This document shows, piece by piece, positions 17,501-25,197 of a stretch of 64,000 bases of DNA; within the stretch, counting starts at the first letter, position 1; each line of letters begins with the position of its first letter. The stretch spans positions 1,364,001 through 1,428,000 of the forward strand of contig JAENZD010000001.1 in NCBI GenBank assembly GCA_016841445.1, in the 5' to 3' direction. The DNA is from Anaerolineaceae bacterium. Its GTDB lineage: Bacteria; Chloroflexota; Anaerolineae; Anaerolineales; Anaerolineaceae. Both the position numbers and the translations under genes were made by a program. The notes under the pieces are model-generated. The model saw only the letters and a list, made by a program, of their open reading frames with translations. It did no database searches and had not been told where the DNA came from.

Positions 17501-18568
17501 ATGATTGAAACTAAATTCGCAATTCATATACACACAAATTACTCTGATGGCAATGCTTCTCACCACGATCTGGCCAAAATTGCCAGTCAGGCAGGTTTGG
17601 ATGGGATTATTACGACTGATCACAACATCTGGGTCGAAGGAATCGAAGGATATTATGGCGAAGGTAAAAAGAAAACGATGGTGTTGGTCGGTGAGGAAAT
17701 TCACGACCGTACACTTGAACCACCGGGGAATCATATGCTGGTTGTCAATGCACAAAAAGAAATGCTGCCCTTCAGCCAGGAACCCCAGCGCCTGATTGAT
17801 CAAATTAACCGCAGTGGTGGTTTATCTTTCATTGCACATCCAGTTGAAGACGCGTTGGAAATGTTCGGTGAAAAGGATTTTTCATGGCGGAATTGGGATA
17901 TAGAACAATTTACGGGAATCGAATTGTGGAATCAGTTGAGTGAATTTAAAAGTGTCACAACCGACCTTTTTTCTGCTGCGATCAATGCAGTATTCCCCAA
18001 GCGGATGTCTTTAGGGCCTCTCGACCGTACTTTAGCACTTTGGGATGAGTTGATTTCAACCCGGGGCAAGCCGGTTGTTGCTGTGGGAGGTGTGGACGCC
18101 CATAGGCTTATTAAAGGCTTCGGCTTGATAAAAATTAAACTCTATCCATACCTTCATCATTTTCGAAGTGTTACAACCCATATCCTTCTCCCCACGCCAT
18201 TAACAGGAAAATTCATTGACGATCGGAATAAAGTGATCGATGCTCTCAGGAAAGGGCACTGCTTTGTTGCTTACGATCTCCCTTCACCCACAGAAGGATT
18301 CCTTTTTTCTGCGCATAATAATGATGGAACTTTTATAATGGGTGACCAGATCCGGATGACTGGGGGACTTACATTGCAAATACGCTTGCCACACCGGGAA
18401 CAATGCCGGTTATTGAAAGATGGAAAAGCGATTAAAGAATGGTCAGACCGTGATGTCTGCACGTATACCACAACCGAACCTGGGGTCTACCGTGTTGAGG
18501 TCCTGATCCCATATAAAGGTAAAATGCGGGGTTGGATCTTCAGCAACCCTATTTACGCCTGGCGTTAA
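17501..18568 (+). CDS. PHP-domain metal-dependent phosphoesterase
   Basis: A 355-residue protein with the PHP metal-binding series: HIHTNYSDG (residues 9-17), TTDHN (about 39), FIAHPVEDA (about 111) and GGVDAHRL (about 200). The C-terminal third (about 260-355) is a beta-rich extension ending in a predicted Ig-like or CBM-like fold ([20 protein letters not shown]). The substrate is unknown; PHP enzymes act on phosphoesters. Its stop TAA and the rtcB stop on the other strand overlap inside GTTAAC. Confidence 0.87.
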
Positions 18569-20007
18569 CCTTTGATCACTAATACCGGTCGCAGTCGGGC
18601 GACTTTCCTGGCAATTCCCGCACCCACGACACTCTCCACAACTTGATCGACATCTTTATAGGCTTCCGGGGCTTCTTCAGCTAATCCGGACATGGAACCA
18701 GCCCTGACTTCAATCCCCTGACCTTCCAAGCGCTTCATTAAGTCTTCTCCCCATACTTCGTGTTTTGCTTTTGAACGGCTCATTACCCGACCAGCCCCAT
18801 GGCAAGAAGAACCAAAGGACCGTTCCATGCTTGTTTTTGTTCCCGTCAGGACCCAGGAAGCTGTTCCCATTGACCCTGGGACCAGGACAGGCTGCCCAAT
18901 TTCCTTGTATTTCTCAGGAATATCTTTAGATCCTGGCCCAAAAGCGCGTGTGGCACCTTTTCGATGCACACAAACAGTTTTCTTCTCTCCCTGTATGATA
19001 TGCTCTTCAAATTTTCCAATATTGTGAGCAATATCATAGATTTGGGTGAGATGCCAATTTCCAACTCGCCCGGCCAGGGCTTCCTCAAAAGCCAGACGGA
19101 TATTATTTGCCAACAGCTGCCTGTTTAGAAAAGCAAAGTTAGCACCACAGCGCATCGCCCCAAGATAATCCTGTCCTTCGGTTGATTGGATTGGCGCACA
19201 CACCAATTGTTTATCCGGCAGCACGATCCCATATTTTTGAACGACACCCTGCAGCTTTCTTACAAAATCTGTGCAAATTTGGTGTCCAAACCCGCGTGAA
19301 CCTGTATGAATTTGCACGGCAATTTCTCCCGTGTACAGCCCCATAACTTTTGCTGCATTTTCGTCAAATATCTTTTCAATAACATCCACTTCAATGAAAT
19401 GGTTGCCAGCGCCAAGCGTCCCCAGTTGCGTTCGACCTCTTTCCAATGCTCGCTCACTTAATTTATCTGGGTCAGCGCCTTCTAAATAACCGTTGCCCTC
19501 TGTGTGGCGGATATCTTCTGCTGACGCATATCCTTCTGCTTTTGCCCAACGGGCGCCTTTCACACAGGCCTCTCTCAATTCATCCTTGGTTAACTTGAGC
19601 TGGCTGCCTACGCCCACACCGCTTGGACAGTATTGGTTTATTTTAGTTGCCAGGTCTGGCAGTAGAGGTTTAATTTCACTTGCTGTGATCCGTGATGCCA
19701 GCAGACGTACACCGCAGTTAATGTCATACCCAATGCCGCCAGGAGAAACCACACCATCCTCCATGTCTGCTGCTGCCACGCCGCCAATCGGAAAGCCGTA
19801 CCCCTGGTGCATGTCCGGCATCACCATCACAGCCTCAACCAAACCTGGCAGCGTGCTGACATTGATTGCTTGTTCAATGGATTTATCTGATAAAGTGTCC
19901 TGAATCAGCGACCAGGAGGCAAAAACGCGTACTGGCACACGCATATCCGAGCGGAAATCAGGAGAGATCTCCCATTCAAAATCGCTGATTTTTGAGAACA
20001 TATCCAT
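18565..20007 (-). CDS. rtcB: RNA-splicing ligase RtcB
   Basis: A 480-residue RtcB. Metal and active-site motifs are all present: [14 protein letters not shown] (Cys ligand), [11 protein letters not shown], and the guanylylated His in [15 protein letters not shown]. RtcB joins 2',3'-cyclic phosphate or 3'-phosphate RNA ends to 5'-OH ends using GTP and Mn. The archease gene lies 26 bases upstream on the same strand and supplies its activator. In bacteria this pair serves RNA repair rather than intron removal. Confidence 0.97.
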
Positions 20008-20033
20008 GTTTTTTCCTGTCTACTCTTTGTTTT

Positions 20034-20441
20034 CTACACATCAAAAGTTAGTATTGTCTCAAAACCTTTCTCAGTTTCGATAATTTCCAAAGCATGATAG
20101 GTTACTGCCTTAATCTGCCTCCTCAGTTTTTGAATTTCATGAGCCCCTGCAGATATCTGGATATGATCATCTGATATTTTGGACGAGAAAGCCGAGAGAT
20201 AGATCTCTTTTTCTTCACATAGATATAAGAGCTCGTTCAAAAAATCTACCAGGATGTTCTCTCGATCACTTAATGGCAATGTGAAATCAATTTCTTTCTT
20301 AGTAGTTTCAACATATTCCACCTCCATCAGGTTATACATCCCTTTTGCAGCATATTTGATCAGCGCGTAAAAATCATTCCCCCACACCTTTAATGCAAGA
20401 TCAGCAGTATGGGCAATCTCCGCGTAACCACCATTATTCAT
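20034..20441 (-). CDS. Archease (RtcB activator)
   Basis: A 135-residue archease from the ATG at 20441. The frame is open for 20 further codons upstream, but that part is not archease-like and would run into the divergent fhaA start. The family start AEIAHTADLALKVWG contains the conserved Asp, and the middle has LVDFLNELLYL and the C-terminus VTYHALEI. Archease promotes multiple turnover and guanylylation of RtcB. The pairing with rtcB 26 bases downstream supports the call. Confidence 0.93.
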   Translation of the reverse strand: MNNGGYAEIAHTADLALKVWGNDFYALIKYAAKGMYNLMEVEYVETTKKEIDFTLPLSDRENILVDFLNELLYLCEEKEIYLSAFSSKISDDHIQISAGAHEIQKLRRQIKAVTYHALEIIETEKGFETILTFDV

Positions 20442-20446
20442 CTTGA

Positions 20447-20458
20447 GTATAATTATAC
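20447..20458. promoter_or_regulatory. Divergent overlapping -10-like palindrome
   Basis: GTATAATTATAC is a perfect palindrome between archease (minus) and fhaA (plus), giving a TATAAT on each strand. If both are used, transcripts would have very short leaders (ATGs are 6 and 14 bases away). The -35 regions are weak, so this is tentative. Confidence 0.4.
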
Positions 20459-20471
20459 TGGATTGGAATCT

Positions 20472-21263
20472 ATGAATAAAAATCTTGACCTTATTGAACA
20501 TCGTCTTAGAACGCTATTTGAAGAAGATTTAATAGCGATATTTATCGGTAAGCGCCAAAACCCTCCGTTAATAGACGATCTCATACAATCAATGCGAATT
20601 AATATCAACAATAAAGCCAGCAATGAGCTGTTGTCTCCAAATATTTTCAACATCCACGTGTCATCTGCAGACTATGATGATTGGACGCTGCATCAATCAG
20701 TTCTCGATGAAATTGCAGGCTCTTTGTTCTCATTGGGCGTTTCCGAAGGATTCAACTTTAAAGATCAACCATCTATTTCCATCACAGATGATCCAGCGGT
20801 TAAACAGGGAACTTATCGCATTACGGCAAAATTTTCGCCAAGCACAGAGCCAATGAAAGATACAACCAGCGTAACCAAACCCGAGCAGATTGATTTTACT
20901 GGAACCTTTCCCAAAAATGCGTTTCTTGTTATTAATGGAAAAGAGAATTTTCCGATTGACAAGTTTGTTTTTAATATCGGCAGGCATTCTGATAACGACC
21001 TCTTATTGGACGATCCATATATTTCCAGGCATCATGCACAACTGCGAGCAGTAAACCAGCAATTCGTGATTTTTGATGTTGGATCCAAGGGTGGTATTTT
21101 TGTAAACGGAAGGAAAATCATTCAATCAACCCTTCAAACAGGCGATGTTATTCAGGTTGGCGCAACCCATTTGATTTACATTCAGGATTCAACTTCCCAC
21201 CATTACACAACAACAATGCCTGCAGATGATGGCGATTACCCTCAGGGAAGTCACACTAAATGA
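20472..21263 (+). CDS. FhaA-like protein (DUF3662 plus FHA domain)
   Basis: A 263-residue protein from the ATG at 20472; the frame opens 21 codons earlier, but those overlap archease. Residues 1-115 match the FhaA N-terminal domain (LDLIEHRLRTLFEE, then the VSSADYDDW segment). Residues about 165-245 form an FHA phosphothreonine-binding domain with FNIGRHSDNDLLL, YISRHHAQL and DVGSKGGIFVNGRKI. In Actinobacteria FhaA sits with pknB, pstP, rodA and pbpA and binds phosphorylated cell-wall regulators. Here the same neighbourhood (fhaB, SEDS-PBP) is kept without an adjacent kinase. Confidence 0.88.
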   Translation: MNKNLDLIEHRLRTLFEEDLIAIFIGKRQNPPLIDDLIQSMRININNKASNELLSPNIFNIHVSSADYDDWTLHQSVLDEIAGSLFSLGVSEGFNFKDQPSISITDDPAVKQGTYRITAKFSPSTEPMKDTTSVTKPEQIDFTGTFPKNAFLVINGKENFPIDKFVFNIGRHSDNDLLLDDPYISRHHAQLRAVNQQFVIFDVGSKGGIFVNGRKIIQSTLQTGDVIQVGATHLIYIQDSTSHHYTTTMPADDGDYPQGSHTK

Positions 21264-21685
21264 ATGCGATCTTAGCGTTTGCCCTCAGAATTATTCTGCT
21301 TATATTATTTTATGTCTTCATTGGTTGGATCAGCTATCTTATCTATTCTGATTTAAGAGGATCTGGAAGAATTGGGGCCGGGAAAGCAACCATCCCCCCT
21401 ATTCACTTCCATTTCACAGATAATGATGAGTCTATCGAGAATATATATACGAAATCTGAAATAATATTGGGTCGTGACCCGGCTAGCGACTTGCCGTTAA
21501 GCGATGACAGAATTTCCCTGAGACATTGCAAAATAGCCTACTATCAGAACCAGTGGTGGGTTGAAGACCTTGGGTCAACAAATGGCACCTACTTGAACAA
21601 CGCATTGATCACATCAAATATCGTCCTGATGAATGGCGATATTCTACGCTTAGGACATCAGGAAATCCGTGTAAAAATGGGATAA
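21260..21685 (+). CDS. FhaB-like membrane FHA protein
   Basis: A 141-residue protein with one N-terminal TM helix (about 5-28) and a C-terminal FHA domain (ILGRDPASDLPLSDDRISLRHCKI and DLGSTNGTYLNN as separate segments). It overlaps fhaA by 4 bases (ATGA), so the two are coupled. It would display an FHA domain on the cytoplasmic face beside the SEDS-PBP protein encoded two genes downstream. Confidence 0.9.
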   Translation: MNAILAFALRIILLILFYVFIGWISYLIYSDLRGSGRIGAGKATIPPIHFHFTDNDESIENIYTKSEIILGRDPASDLPLSDDRISLRHCKIAYYQNQWWVEDLGSTNGTYLNNALITSNIVLMNGDILRLGHQEIRVKMG

Positions 21686-21707: not shown

Positions 21708-22574
21708 ATGAATGATACACCTATATTAGCTGTCATCGGTGGGTCTGGACTATACGAATTTGAAGATTTAAATGAGATAAAGACTCTGGAAATAGACACA
21801 CCTTTTGGGAAACCAAGCTCCCCAATTACCCTGGGAAAGCTTGGCGGGAGAACCGTCGCCTTCCTTGCACGGCATGGCATTGGCCACATTTTCCCACCCA
21901 GTAAAGTCCCCTACCGGGCTAATATCTATGCCCTGAAATCCCTTGGTATAAAAAGGATTGTAAGTGTGAGTGCCTGTGGTTCTCTGCGGGAATCTTACGC
22001 ACCAGGCCACATCGTTATCCCAAACCAGGTATTTGACTTCACACATCAACGAGAACGCAGTTTTTTTGATACAGGAATGGTCGCACATGTCAGTGTGGCT
22101 GACCCGTTTTGTGAATCCCTTTCAACTATATTGGAGGAAAGCCTTATCGAACTGGATGCAACCTACCATCGCGGCGGAACCTATATCACTATCGAAGGGC
22201 CAAGGTTCTCAACCAAAGGGGAATCGGGACAGTACCGGCAGTGGGGCATGGATATTATCGGCATGACGGCTTCACCAGAGGTCTTCCTCGCCCGGGAAGC
22301 GGAAATGTGCTACACAACCATGGCACATGTCACCGATTACGATGTTTGGCATGTTAGCGAAGAAACGGTCTCTGTGGATATGGTTATGCGTACCTTGCAA
22401 AAGAATGTGAAATTAGCACAGGGTGCGATCAAACTCATTGTTGCACATATTGATCCATCTGAGTCATGTGAATGCGAGAATTCGCTTCAAAATGCGATCA
22501 TATCCAATCCATCAGCCATATCAAAAGAAAAGCGTCAGCAGCTAGACTTACTGGTTGCAAAATACCTGGATTGA
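21708..22574 (+). CDS. mtnP: S-methyl-5'-thioadenosine phosphorylase
   Basis: A 288-residue MTAP. The sequence shows VIGGSGLYEF at the N-terminus, FLARHGIGH, the phosphate-site region and IGMTASPEVFLAREAEMCYTT near residue 185, followed by HVTDYDVW. These residues mark the MTAP branch rather than inosine/guanosine phosphorylases. It cleaves methylthioadenosine to adenine and 5-methylthioribose 1-phosphate. An AAAGGAG site precedes the ATG. Its place between fhaB and the SEDS-PBP gene has no evident functional reason. Confidence 0.92.
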   Translation: MNDTPILAVIGGSGLYEFEDLNEIKTLEIDTPFGKPSSPITLGKLGGRTVAFLARHGIGHIFPPSKVPYRANIYALKSLGIKRIVSVSACGSLRESYAPGHIVIPNQVFDFTHQRERSFFDTGMVAHVSVADPFCESLSTILEESLIELDATYHRGGTYITIEGPRFSTKGESGQYRQWGMDIIGMTASPEVFLAREAEMCYTTMAHVTDYDVWHVSEETVSVDMVMRTLQKNVKLAQGAIKLIVAHIDPSESCECENSLQNAIISNPSAISKEKRQQLDLLVAKYLD

Positions 22575-22575
22575 T

Positions 22576-25197
22576 GTGAAAGTACTCTTTTCAATCGGAA
22601 ACGATCAATCTGAAAGGGATCAAATCCAAAGCAGATTGATGATCATAGCATTTTTGGTCATCATATGCTATGCCCTCATCCTGACATTGGCACCCGCTAT
22701 CAGGCTCCAATCTGATAGTTCAAATTACATATTCAAACAATGGATTGGCGTTGTGGTTTGGATGACCGTCTTTGCCGGGCTCCATTACCAATCCGCCAAA
22801 AAACTGACCAACCGCGATCCCTATCTCCTGCCAATCGTCGCCCTCTTGAACGGGATAGGTTTGATGACAATCTGGCGTCTTTATCCCAACTTTGGGCTTC
22901 GCCAGAGTATCTGGCTGCTGGTTTCTGGATCTGTCGTCTTTATCGCTTTATATTTTCCATCCTTAATTAAAATACTTCACCGCTATAAATACATTTGGTT
23001 GGTTTTGGGTCTCATCCTTACTGCATTAACAATTTTCTGGGGTACTAATCCAAGCGGGTTTGGTCCCGAACTCTGGTTTGATATCTTCGGTATCTATTTT
23101 CAGCCCTCAGAACCTCTGAAATTATTATTCATTGCATTTCTCGCAGGGTATTTTTCAGATCGGTTTCAAGTCGCCCATGGAAAGTGGCAAACCCTTCTCC
23201 CGGCGCTGATCATCAACGGGATTGCCGTCCTACTGCTCATCTTCCAAAGGGATTTGGGGACTGCCCTAGTTTTTCTTTTTCTTTATTTTGCTATCCTCTA
23301 TGCAGCCCAGGGTAAAAAACTGATTTTATGGCTTTCAGTCCTCTTTTTGCTGATTTCCGCAGCAGCAGGTTATGTTTTTATTGATATCGTCCGATTACGA
23401 ATTGACACCTGGCTTGCACCATTCTCTGACCCTTCAGGGGCATCCTATCAAATCATCCAGTCCTGGATTGCAGTCGCTGAAGGCGATCTCATCGGTACTG
23501 GCGCAGGATTGGGAAATCCAAACCTGATCCCTGTTTCGCTCTCTGATTTTATTTATTCAGCGATCACTGAAGAAACAGGCATTCTCGGGGCTATGGCTAT
23601 CATTTTATTGTTTATTTTCCTGCTTTTCCGCGGGATAAAAATAAGCAAATCAACGCAGAATGCCTTCCAACGCTACCTATCACTGGGTCTCATTTTTTAC
23701 ATTGGCATTCAGAGCATCCTGATCATAGGAGGCAATCTCGGGTTGCTGCCGCTGACAGGGGTCACGCTGCCATTTGTCTCCTACGGCGGAACTTCCCTGC
23801 TGGTTTCTTTCAGCGGTTTATATCTTCTATTGTCTATCAGCAACCAGGCTGTATCCTCTGAAGCTAAGGAATCAATTAAACAACCCAGAATTTCTGTACT
23901 GAGTGGGGTTATGATCGGACTATACATTAGTGAGATGATCGGCACCAGCATTATTGGATTTTGGCTCAGAACACCATTGGTTGATCGGCCTGAAAATCCC
24001 CGCTGGATCATTGAGGATCGCTATTCACAAAGAGGCGATATCCTCGACCGTAATAACCAGGTTATCATCTCAAATACCGGAGAGATTGGTAATTATCAGC
24101 GCACATCAATTCATATCCCCCTCTACCCTGTCATTGGGTATACCAACCCGATCTATGGCCAAACCGGGATTGAATCGAGCATGTATTCCTATCTGAGAGG
24201 CAATCAGGGGTACAGTTTCCAGACGACATTTTGGCAAGACCTCCTCTATAACCAGCCACCGGAAGGTTTGGATATCCGCCTGACACTTGATTTAGACCTT
24301 CAAAAAGAAGCAGATTTGTTATTGGGAGATTCCTCAGGGGCAATTGTCGTGATGAATGCAAATTCAGGTGAAATACTGGCAATGGCATCCCATCCATATT
24401 TTGATGCATCAGAACTAACTGAGGAATGGGAAAACCTGATAGAAAATGAGAATGGGCCGCTGGTCAACCGGGCAACCCAGGGCACCTACCCACCCGGGTC
24501 TGCGATATTCCCATTTATGTTAAGTGCTGCTTTGGAACGAAACTTAATACTTCCGGATCCAAACTCAATATCAGAGATCGTCAATTCACAATGTGCAAAA
24601 TCAATTGAAGGCGACCTAACATGGGGCATATTAGCCAATAATGGCTGCGTGGAAGCGCAAGTAATTTTAGCGGACTTATTAAGTGTTAATGCCGTCGCTG
24701 ACTTTTTTGAGAATTTTGAATTATTTTCCCAACCTGAAATGCATCTAAATATTGCGATAATAGAACAGCCAGGGATTGAAGAGCAGGCAGCATACCTTTG
24801 GGGTGTCGAACCATTAACGATTACTCCGCTCCAAATGGCATTGGCTGCCAGCAGTATCACCAACAACGGCACACGGCCAGGCCCCCGCATTGTTAACGCC
24901 TATCTGTCCCCTTCTGGAGCGTGGGAAACAATCCCTAAATTATCGACCAGCAAGGAGGTCCTCTCACCGGGAATCGCCACAGAGGTCAGCAATGTACTGC
25001 AGGTAGCCGGGGAATCATATTGGAAAGGTTCTGCTCTGCTGGAATCCTCTGACGAAAAGCTGATCAGTTGGTGGGTTGCCGGAACAACATCAGCCTGGCC
25101 TGGCCAACCCATAACAGTAGTTGTCTTATTGGAGTCTGCTGACCAAGCAAAAGCTGAAGAAATTGGGATTTCCTTACTGAATTCGTCCATTCAATAG
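22576..25197 (+). CDS. SEDS (FtsW/RodA) glycosyltransferase fused to a degenerate PBP transpeptidase domain
   Basis: An 873-residue fusion. I prefer the GTG at 22576, one base after the mtnP stop; a TTG at 22555 is also possible. Residues about 20-430 are a SEDS polymerase with FQPSEPLKL, FQRDLGTALVFLF, the catalytic-Asp loop SDPSGASYQIIQS (Asp about 285), ITEETGILG and PFVSYGGTSLL. Residues about 460-873 follow a PBP2 plan (SQRGDILDRN, IESSMYSYLRG, VVMNANSGEILAMAS). The three transpeptidase motifs are lost: SxxK is S642-A-I-F, SxN is replaced by N-N-G, and KTG by K817-G-S. Polymerisation is likely retained; cross-linking by this protein is not. Confidence 0.9.
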   Translation: MKVLFSIGNDQSERDQIQSRLMIIAFLVIICYALILTLAPAIRLQSDSSNYIFKQWIGVVVWMTVFAGLHYQSAKKLTNRDPYLLPIVALLNGIGLMTIWRLYPNFGLRQSIWLLVSGSVVFIALYFPSLIKILHRYKYIWLVLGLILTALTIFWGTNPSGFGPELWFDIFGIYFQPSEPLKLLFIAFLAGYFSDRFQVAHGKWQTLLPALIINGIAVLLLIFQRDLGTALVFLFLYFAILYAAQGKKLILWLSVLFLLISAAAGYVFIDIVRLRIDTWLAPFSDPSGASYQIIQSWIAVAEGDLIGTGAGLGNPNLIPVSLSDFIYSAITEETGILGAMAIILLFIFLLFRGIKISKSTQNAFQRYLSLGLIFYIGIQSILIIGGNLGLLPLTGVTLPFVSYGGTSLLVSFSGLYLLLSISNQAVSSEAKESIKQPRISVLSGVMIGLYISEMIGTSIIGFWLRTPLVDRPENPRWIIEDRYSQRGDILDRNNQVIISNTGEIGNYQRTSIHIPLYPVIGYTNPIYGQTGIESSMYSYLRGNQGYSFQTTFWQDLLYNQPPEGLDIRLTLDLDLQKEADLLLGDSSGAIVVMNANSGEILAMASHPYFDASELTEEWENLIENENGPLVNRATQGTYPPGSAIFPFMLSAALERNLILPDPNSISEIVNSQCAKSIEGDLTWGILANNGCVEAQVILADLLSVNAVADFFENFELFSQPEMHLNIAIIEQPGIEEQAAYLWGVEPLTITPLQMALAASSITNNGTRPGPRIVNAYLSPSGAWETIPKLSTSKEVLSPGIATEVSNVLQVAGESYWKGSALLESSDEKLISWWVAGTTSAWPGQPITVVVLLESADQAKAEEIGISLLNSSIQ

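Follow-up and report, generated by a model that had tools for sequence, protein, structure and literature searches.

A third SEDS polymerase in Anaerolineaceae fused to a PbpA-type protein without its transpeptidase motifs

The window analysed here is a stretch of 64,000 nucleotides from an Anaerolineaceae bacterium. It carries a gene (22576..25197, plus strand) encoding a SEDS polymerase followed in the same chain by a penicillin-binding protein (PBP) of the PbpA type. We read the product, with a probability of roughly 0.7, as a third SEDS polymerase whose cognate PbpA-type PBP became catalytically dead, was then fused to it and has been kept as a structural activator in cis. Judged from its sequence, the protein belongs to the SEDS polymerases and descends from the PbpA-type PBPs, and it is not an active class B PBP. 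A search of the open-licence PMC literature turned up no earlier account of a natural fusion between a SEDS protein and a dead PBP.

Domain layout and the SEDS half

The gene is a single reading frame of 873 aa with a GTG start at 22576, which overlaps the 3' end of the preceding gene; a TTG at 22555 is a possible alternative start further upstream. A Pfam search of the protein gave matches to PF01098 (SEDS; aa 106-424, 1.3e-67), PF21922 (PbpA-type dimerisation domain; aa 486-565, 5e-8) and PF00905 (transpeptidase domain; aa 588-813, 3e-20). The SEDS half was assigned to aa 13-424 (22612..23847); it matches solved RodA/FtsW structures by sequence, and about 12 long helices are predicted for it in the structure model. 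The PBP half consists of a single transmembrane helix (aa 439-463, 23890..23964), taken from the secondary structure of the model, a PbpA-type pedestal or dimerisation domain (aa 464-585, 23965..24330) and a degenerate transpeptidase domain (aa 586-873, 24331..25194), which rests on the PF00905 match and on a fold match. All of these features are on the plus strand.

Substituting D262 of E. coli RodA abolishes polymerisation (PMC6207328). The equivalent residue of the fusion protein is, by alignment, D324 (23545..23547, plus strand), and an Asp is present at this position in every FtsW, RodA and third-SEDS sequence that was aligned (38 of 38 in alignment A3). The initial annotation had named D285, in the loop SDPSGASYQ, as the SEDS Asp; this was wrong, as D285 aligns with D220 of E. 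coli RodA, a position that is variable in this phylum. Because the FtsW of the genome has an Asn at the D285 position, we had first considered a swap, with a dead polymerase and a live PBP on the FtsW side and the reverse in the fusion. This idea was dropped, since the E. coli RodA numbering places D262 at D324 and this Asp is found in all three SEDS proteins. The polymerase half thus retains the catalytic Asp, together with the cavity motifs, and looks able to polymerise.

When a tree was inferred from the SEDS half by maximum likelihood, the third SEDS proteins formed a clade separate from RodA and FtsW with a support of 100/100. The SEDS half of the fusion falls outside both of these clades and is orthologous to neither protein in the tree. 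The same genome also encodes its own RodA (with mreBCD) and its own FtsW (in dcw).

Two observations concern these other SEDS proteins. The mreBCD-linked RodA (L041 109-1227, minus strand; relatives L074-L112) has an Asn at the position of E. coli RodA D159, the site reading QPNLS versus QPDLG in nearly all sampled genomes of the family, and the Asp at this position is kept by the third SEDS and, with few exceptions, by FtsW. At one locus (L095, G017:C1:2440900-2443400) FtsW and MurG are found in one frame of ~765 aa (PF01098, PF03033 and PF04101), while the other sampled genomes of this genus (g17, which has no fusion) show an FtsW frame of ordinary length; the long frame may be either a real fusion or a sequence error.

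Loss of the transpeptidase motifs

Alignment with active relatives of the same locus places the lost SxxK site at S642-A-I-F645 (24499..24510), the lost SxN site at G690-C691-V692 (24643..24651; family consensus GCP) and the lost KTG site at W816-K-G-S819 (25021..25032), all on the plus strand. The last of these reads W816-K817-G818, or K817-G-S when shifted by one residue. W816, which stands where KTG has its lysine, is invariant (38/38 sequences), and so are W783 and W832. The absence of all three catalytic motifs, claimed from the window sequence at the outset, was borne out in the fusion protein, and a full triad was found in none of its fused relatives (0/134). As for the exact placement of the motifs, S-A-I-F was correct; N-N-G was not, as the SxN site is the GCV about two residues later; and K-G-S is indeed present at the KTG site, but its likeness to the motif is not conserved, the conserved residue being W816. 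Nor did the alignment give a proper triad elsewhere in the domain: an alternative SxxK...SxN...KTG in this order was found in none of the 136 sequences scanned, which comprised the fusion itself, its 134 fused relatives and a single unfused one, with some species represented twice.

In most of the 136 sequences the SxxK serine has given way to Thr, Ala, Asp, Pro or Asn, and a Ser at the old nucleophile site is kept in 7/38. SxN has been changed to GCP or deleted among the fused relatives, and in families f2 and f4 the segment around it is deleted. Three isolated relatives (L167, L187 and L205) still have the lysine of SxxK, one of them reading SALK. They were rejected as cases of retained catalysis and the lysine was treated as chance, since the remaining motifs are missing. 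Two further sequences were excluded as evidence, L253 (truncated by a contig end and automatically labelled dead) and L238 (rearranged in the SxxK region). The motif loss recurs across the whole family and its sister families, and the loss in the fusion therefore exceeds what chance would give. From these alignments, it is near certain that the fusion has lost transpeptidase catalysis.

Distribution, locus and order of events

Of 121 genomes sampled from the family of the window, about 99 carry the fusion (E < 1e-100). It is missing from 12/12 genomes of the genus g17 (G017, G049, G065, G076, G084 and seven more) and from 2/2 genomes of another genus (G013, G046). The checked genomes of these genera have RodA and FtsW as their only SEDS proteins, and such genera are natural losses that are usable for a comparison of morphology. 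A species-wide scan with patterns from the PBP half, using one genome per species for 84,980 species, gave 171 relatives, and the 80 best of these were retrieved; Brevefilum, Anaerolinea thermolimosa, Ornatilinea apprima and Bellilinea caldifistulae are among the named ones. At six loci (L116, L249, L129, L130, L228, L231) the third SEDS gene has no adjacent PBP gene; some of these loci are close to contig ends, and the PBP may sit elsewhere (e.g. G208 C3:184 kb).

Upstream of the fusion, on the same strand, are an FhaA homologue (FhaA_N and FHA, PF12401 and PF00498; 20409..21263), an FhaB homologue (hydrophobic N-terminus and FHA, PF00498; 21260..21685) and a phosphorylase of the PNP/MTAP superfamily (PF01048; 21708..22574). 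Among the best 80 of the 171 relatives, some of whose loci end at contig ends, the fhaA and fhaB genes are found in the flank of 68 loci and the phosphorylase in the flank of 69. The conserved phosphorylase marks the locus as orthologous. Divergent from fhaA are the genes for an RtcB RNA ligase and an archease (18565-20501, minus strand), which are a known functional pair and ordinary here.

In M. tuberculosis the gene order of the corresponding locus is fhaA-fhaB-rodA-pbpA. Both loci have FHA genes (fhaA/fhaB at 20409-21685 in the window) next to sequences for a SEDS protein and a class B PBP of the PbpA type, and M. tuberculosis PbpA and the PBP half of the fusion share the likeness to the PF21922 dimerisation domain. 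However, rodA and pbpA are separate genes in M. tuberculosis, whereas here the two are one chain with a dead PBP; M. tuberculosis PbpA is acylated by penicillin in crystals (3upo and others), whereas the fusion has no triad; and adjacent kinases are absent from the fusion locus. Five Ser/Thr kinase genes were found in the genome and none of them adjoins the locus. Of the initial suggestion that FhaA and FhaB link the fusion to Ser/Thr phosphorylation, the synteny stood (the 68 of 80 loci above) and the adjacent kinases did not, and we regard this tie as one of the weaker claims.

Natural SEDS-PBP fusions have been noted before (PMC10449877), and they resemble the window protein in having SEDS and then PBP in one chain. 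Another probable case is the Atopobium parvulum protein of structure 4jbf, with a PBP part numbered 523-946; its PBP domain was solved with beta-lactams, whereas the PBP half in the window has no catalytic residues. One relative from another class of the phylum (L071/L133) is likewise fused, with the same domain order and with FHA genes upstream, but it is active and retains STFK, SSN and KTG, unlike the fusion in the window. In general, active SEDS-PbpA pairs elsewhere in the phylum are mostly unfused: outside the class, and also in some of its families, the locus consists of an unfused SEDS gene and then a PbpA-type PBP with SxxK, SxN and KTG.

Unfused dead relatives, which persist as full-length genes, are intermediate, with GxxQ or AxxQ, with SCP or ACP, and with HAS, HAA or HGG. 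The decay forms a stepwise series from SxxK to GxxQ, from SCN to SCP, ACP or GCP, and from KTG to HxG. By parsimony on the SEDS-half tree, the character active or dead needs two changes, one in Anaerolineae and one in a distant single row, and the character fused or unfused needs five changes within the dead group. Support is moderate (85/74) for the branch of the dead group and 99/99 for the one that unites this group with the closest active sister. On the simplest reading of these sequences, catalysis would have been lost first, once within the class Anaerolineae, and fusion would have followed several times; an early fusion with later fissions could stand in place of repeated fusion. L070, the sole fusion from outside the class that is dead, has GCP although the tree places it among active relatives, and it may as well be an independent loss as a misplacement in the tree.

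Constraint on the dead half and its possible role

The ratio dN/dS was about 0.06-0.23 for the PBP half against 0.05-0.19 for the SEDS half in 40 close pairs, by simple Nei-Gojobori counts on pairs that are not independent. An AlphaFold2 model of the fusion, built with 38 sequences, had a pLDDT of 88.8 and a pTM of 0.81. Compared with solved structures, the PBP half (aa 480-873) gave its best fold match to the Atopobium PBP domain (Z 41.6 over 368 residues), and the M. tuberculosis PbpA structure gave Z 41.4. Its PF21922 domain and its PBP fold both place it with the PbpA type. The confidently predicted fold and the purifying selection indicate that the dead half is not junk.

A control comparison by region showed where the constraint lies. 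Relative to SEDS, active pairs had an identity of 0.84 for the pedestal and 0.95 for the transpeptidase domain, and dead pairs had 0.82-0.95 and 0.61-0.68; the transpeptidase/pedestal ratios are 1.13 for active and 0.72-0.75 for dead pairs. The transpeptidase domain has thus come under relaxed constraint, whereas the pedestal has not and is conserved as strongly as the SEDS half. In RodA-PBP2, and in class B PBPs generally, the pedestal contacts the polymerase, and it would do so in the fusion as well.

SEDS proteins need their class B PBP partners (PMC10449877, PMC10257715, PMC12713402). RodA is stimulated by the transmembrane helix of PBP2 (PMC10449877), and PBP2 controls RodA through conformational motion and not through direct coupling of the active sites (PMC10257715). 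For B. subtilis PBP2B the catalytic activity is dispensable and the protein itself is not, and the serine-dead SpoVD S311A of C. difficile, with its SEDS partner, still supports asymmetric division; such laboratory mutants separate SEDS support from catalysis (PMC12713402). Those proteins are dead by mutation, whereas the fusion in the window represents a natural, clade-wide loss followed by fusion.

That selection keeps a dead partner intact suggests that this partner really serves to hold the polymerase and switch it on. We infer that a PbpA-type PBP lost its transpeptidase chemistry in an ancestor shared by a large part of Anaerolineae, and that fusion with its SEDS partner came later. Through its transmembrane helix and pedestal, the PBP half would hold and switch the SEDS half, in the way that RodA and FtsW are controlled by their class B PBPs. 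The fusion protein would polymerise glycan strands, and FtsI, PBP2, two further PBPs, a class A PBP or L,D-transpeptidases would cross-link them. The initial annotation had already proposed a structural or regulatory partner in cis, and this gains support from the clade-wide loss, the predicted fold, the purifying selection and the constraint on the pedestal; by analogy with the systems above, the PBP half likely functions as an activator of the SEDS half. The genome also agrees with the proposal that other enzymes do the cross-linking: a search for other PBPs found five with intact SxxK/SxN/KTG (FtsI, PBP2, two without a polymerase domain and one of class A), and there are six YkuD (L,D-transpeptidase-type) domains. 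Two intact-motif PBPs are in tandem (L043 325-4917, plus strand; G000 contig C2), with an N-terminal region that resembles a lipoprotein signal and a putative NTF2/MecA_N-like domain.

Some findings count against an activator. The dead half is evidently dispensable in some lineages, as about a sixth of the sampled genomes of the family have no fusion and the SEDS gene of a few relatives has no PBP beside it. In addition, the transpeptidase domain has been retained, and it would be superfluous for an activator made purely of transmembrane helix and pedestal. Its retention could reflect a new binding role, in which the old cleft, now devoid of Ser/Lys, serves to sense or recruit a binding partner, be it a ligand or a protein (nascent glycan, stem peptide, an active PBP or a divisome protein), or brakes the polymerase. 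The domain is full-length in the family of the window and still under purifying selection, with the three invariant tryptophans, one of them in the place of the KTG lysine, and the periplasmic interface in RodA-PBP2 can also inhibit (PMC10257715). However, its constraint is clearly relaxed compared with active relatives, and the loss of the SxN segment in f2 and f4 makes a single conserved pocket doubtful, so that we consider such a role unlikely. The relaxed constraint, the local deletions and the relatives without an adjacent PBP would also suit a functionless, decaying remnant that is carried along by fusion to a needed polymerase, but this is highly improbable given that every close pair has a dN/dS far below 1, that the fold is predicted with high confidence and that dead, unfused genes persist at full length. 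Transpeptidation through unusual residues, for which the few old-site serines and the isolated SALK might be cited, is hardly credible, as no nucleophile or general base is conserved at any triad site, the Ser is mostly replaced by Ala, Thr, Asn or Pro, and the conserved C673 and C691 have counterparts in active SCN relatives and are more simply read as structural.

With the dead PBP half taken as an activator in cis, the question of whether the activator and cross-linking roles of class B PBPs are separable, previously addressed with engineered mutants, is here put to a natural experiment. The active, dead-unfused, dead-fused and PBP-less relatives form a ready set for mapping the parts that activate the polymerase. 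As a module for cell-wall polymerisation, the fusion would also be expected to escape acylation by beta-lactams. More tentatively, a large part of the class may have a polymerase-only SEDS machine, in which the pseudo-transpeptidase would be a new regulatory or sensing domain; glycan polymerisation and cross-linking, which other systems couple inside a single SEDS-bPBP complex, would then be uncoupled by design.
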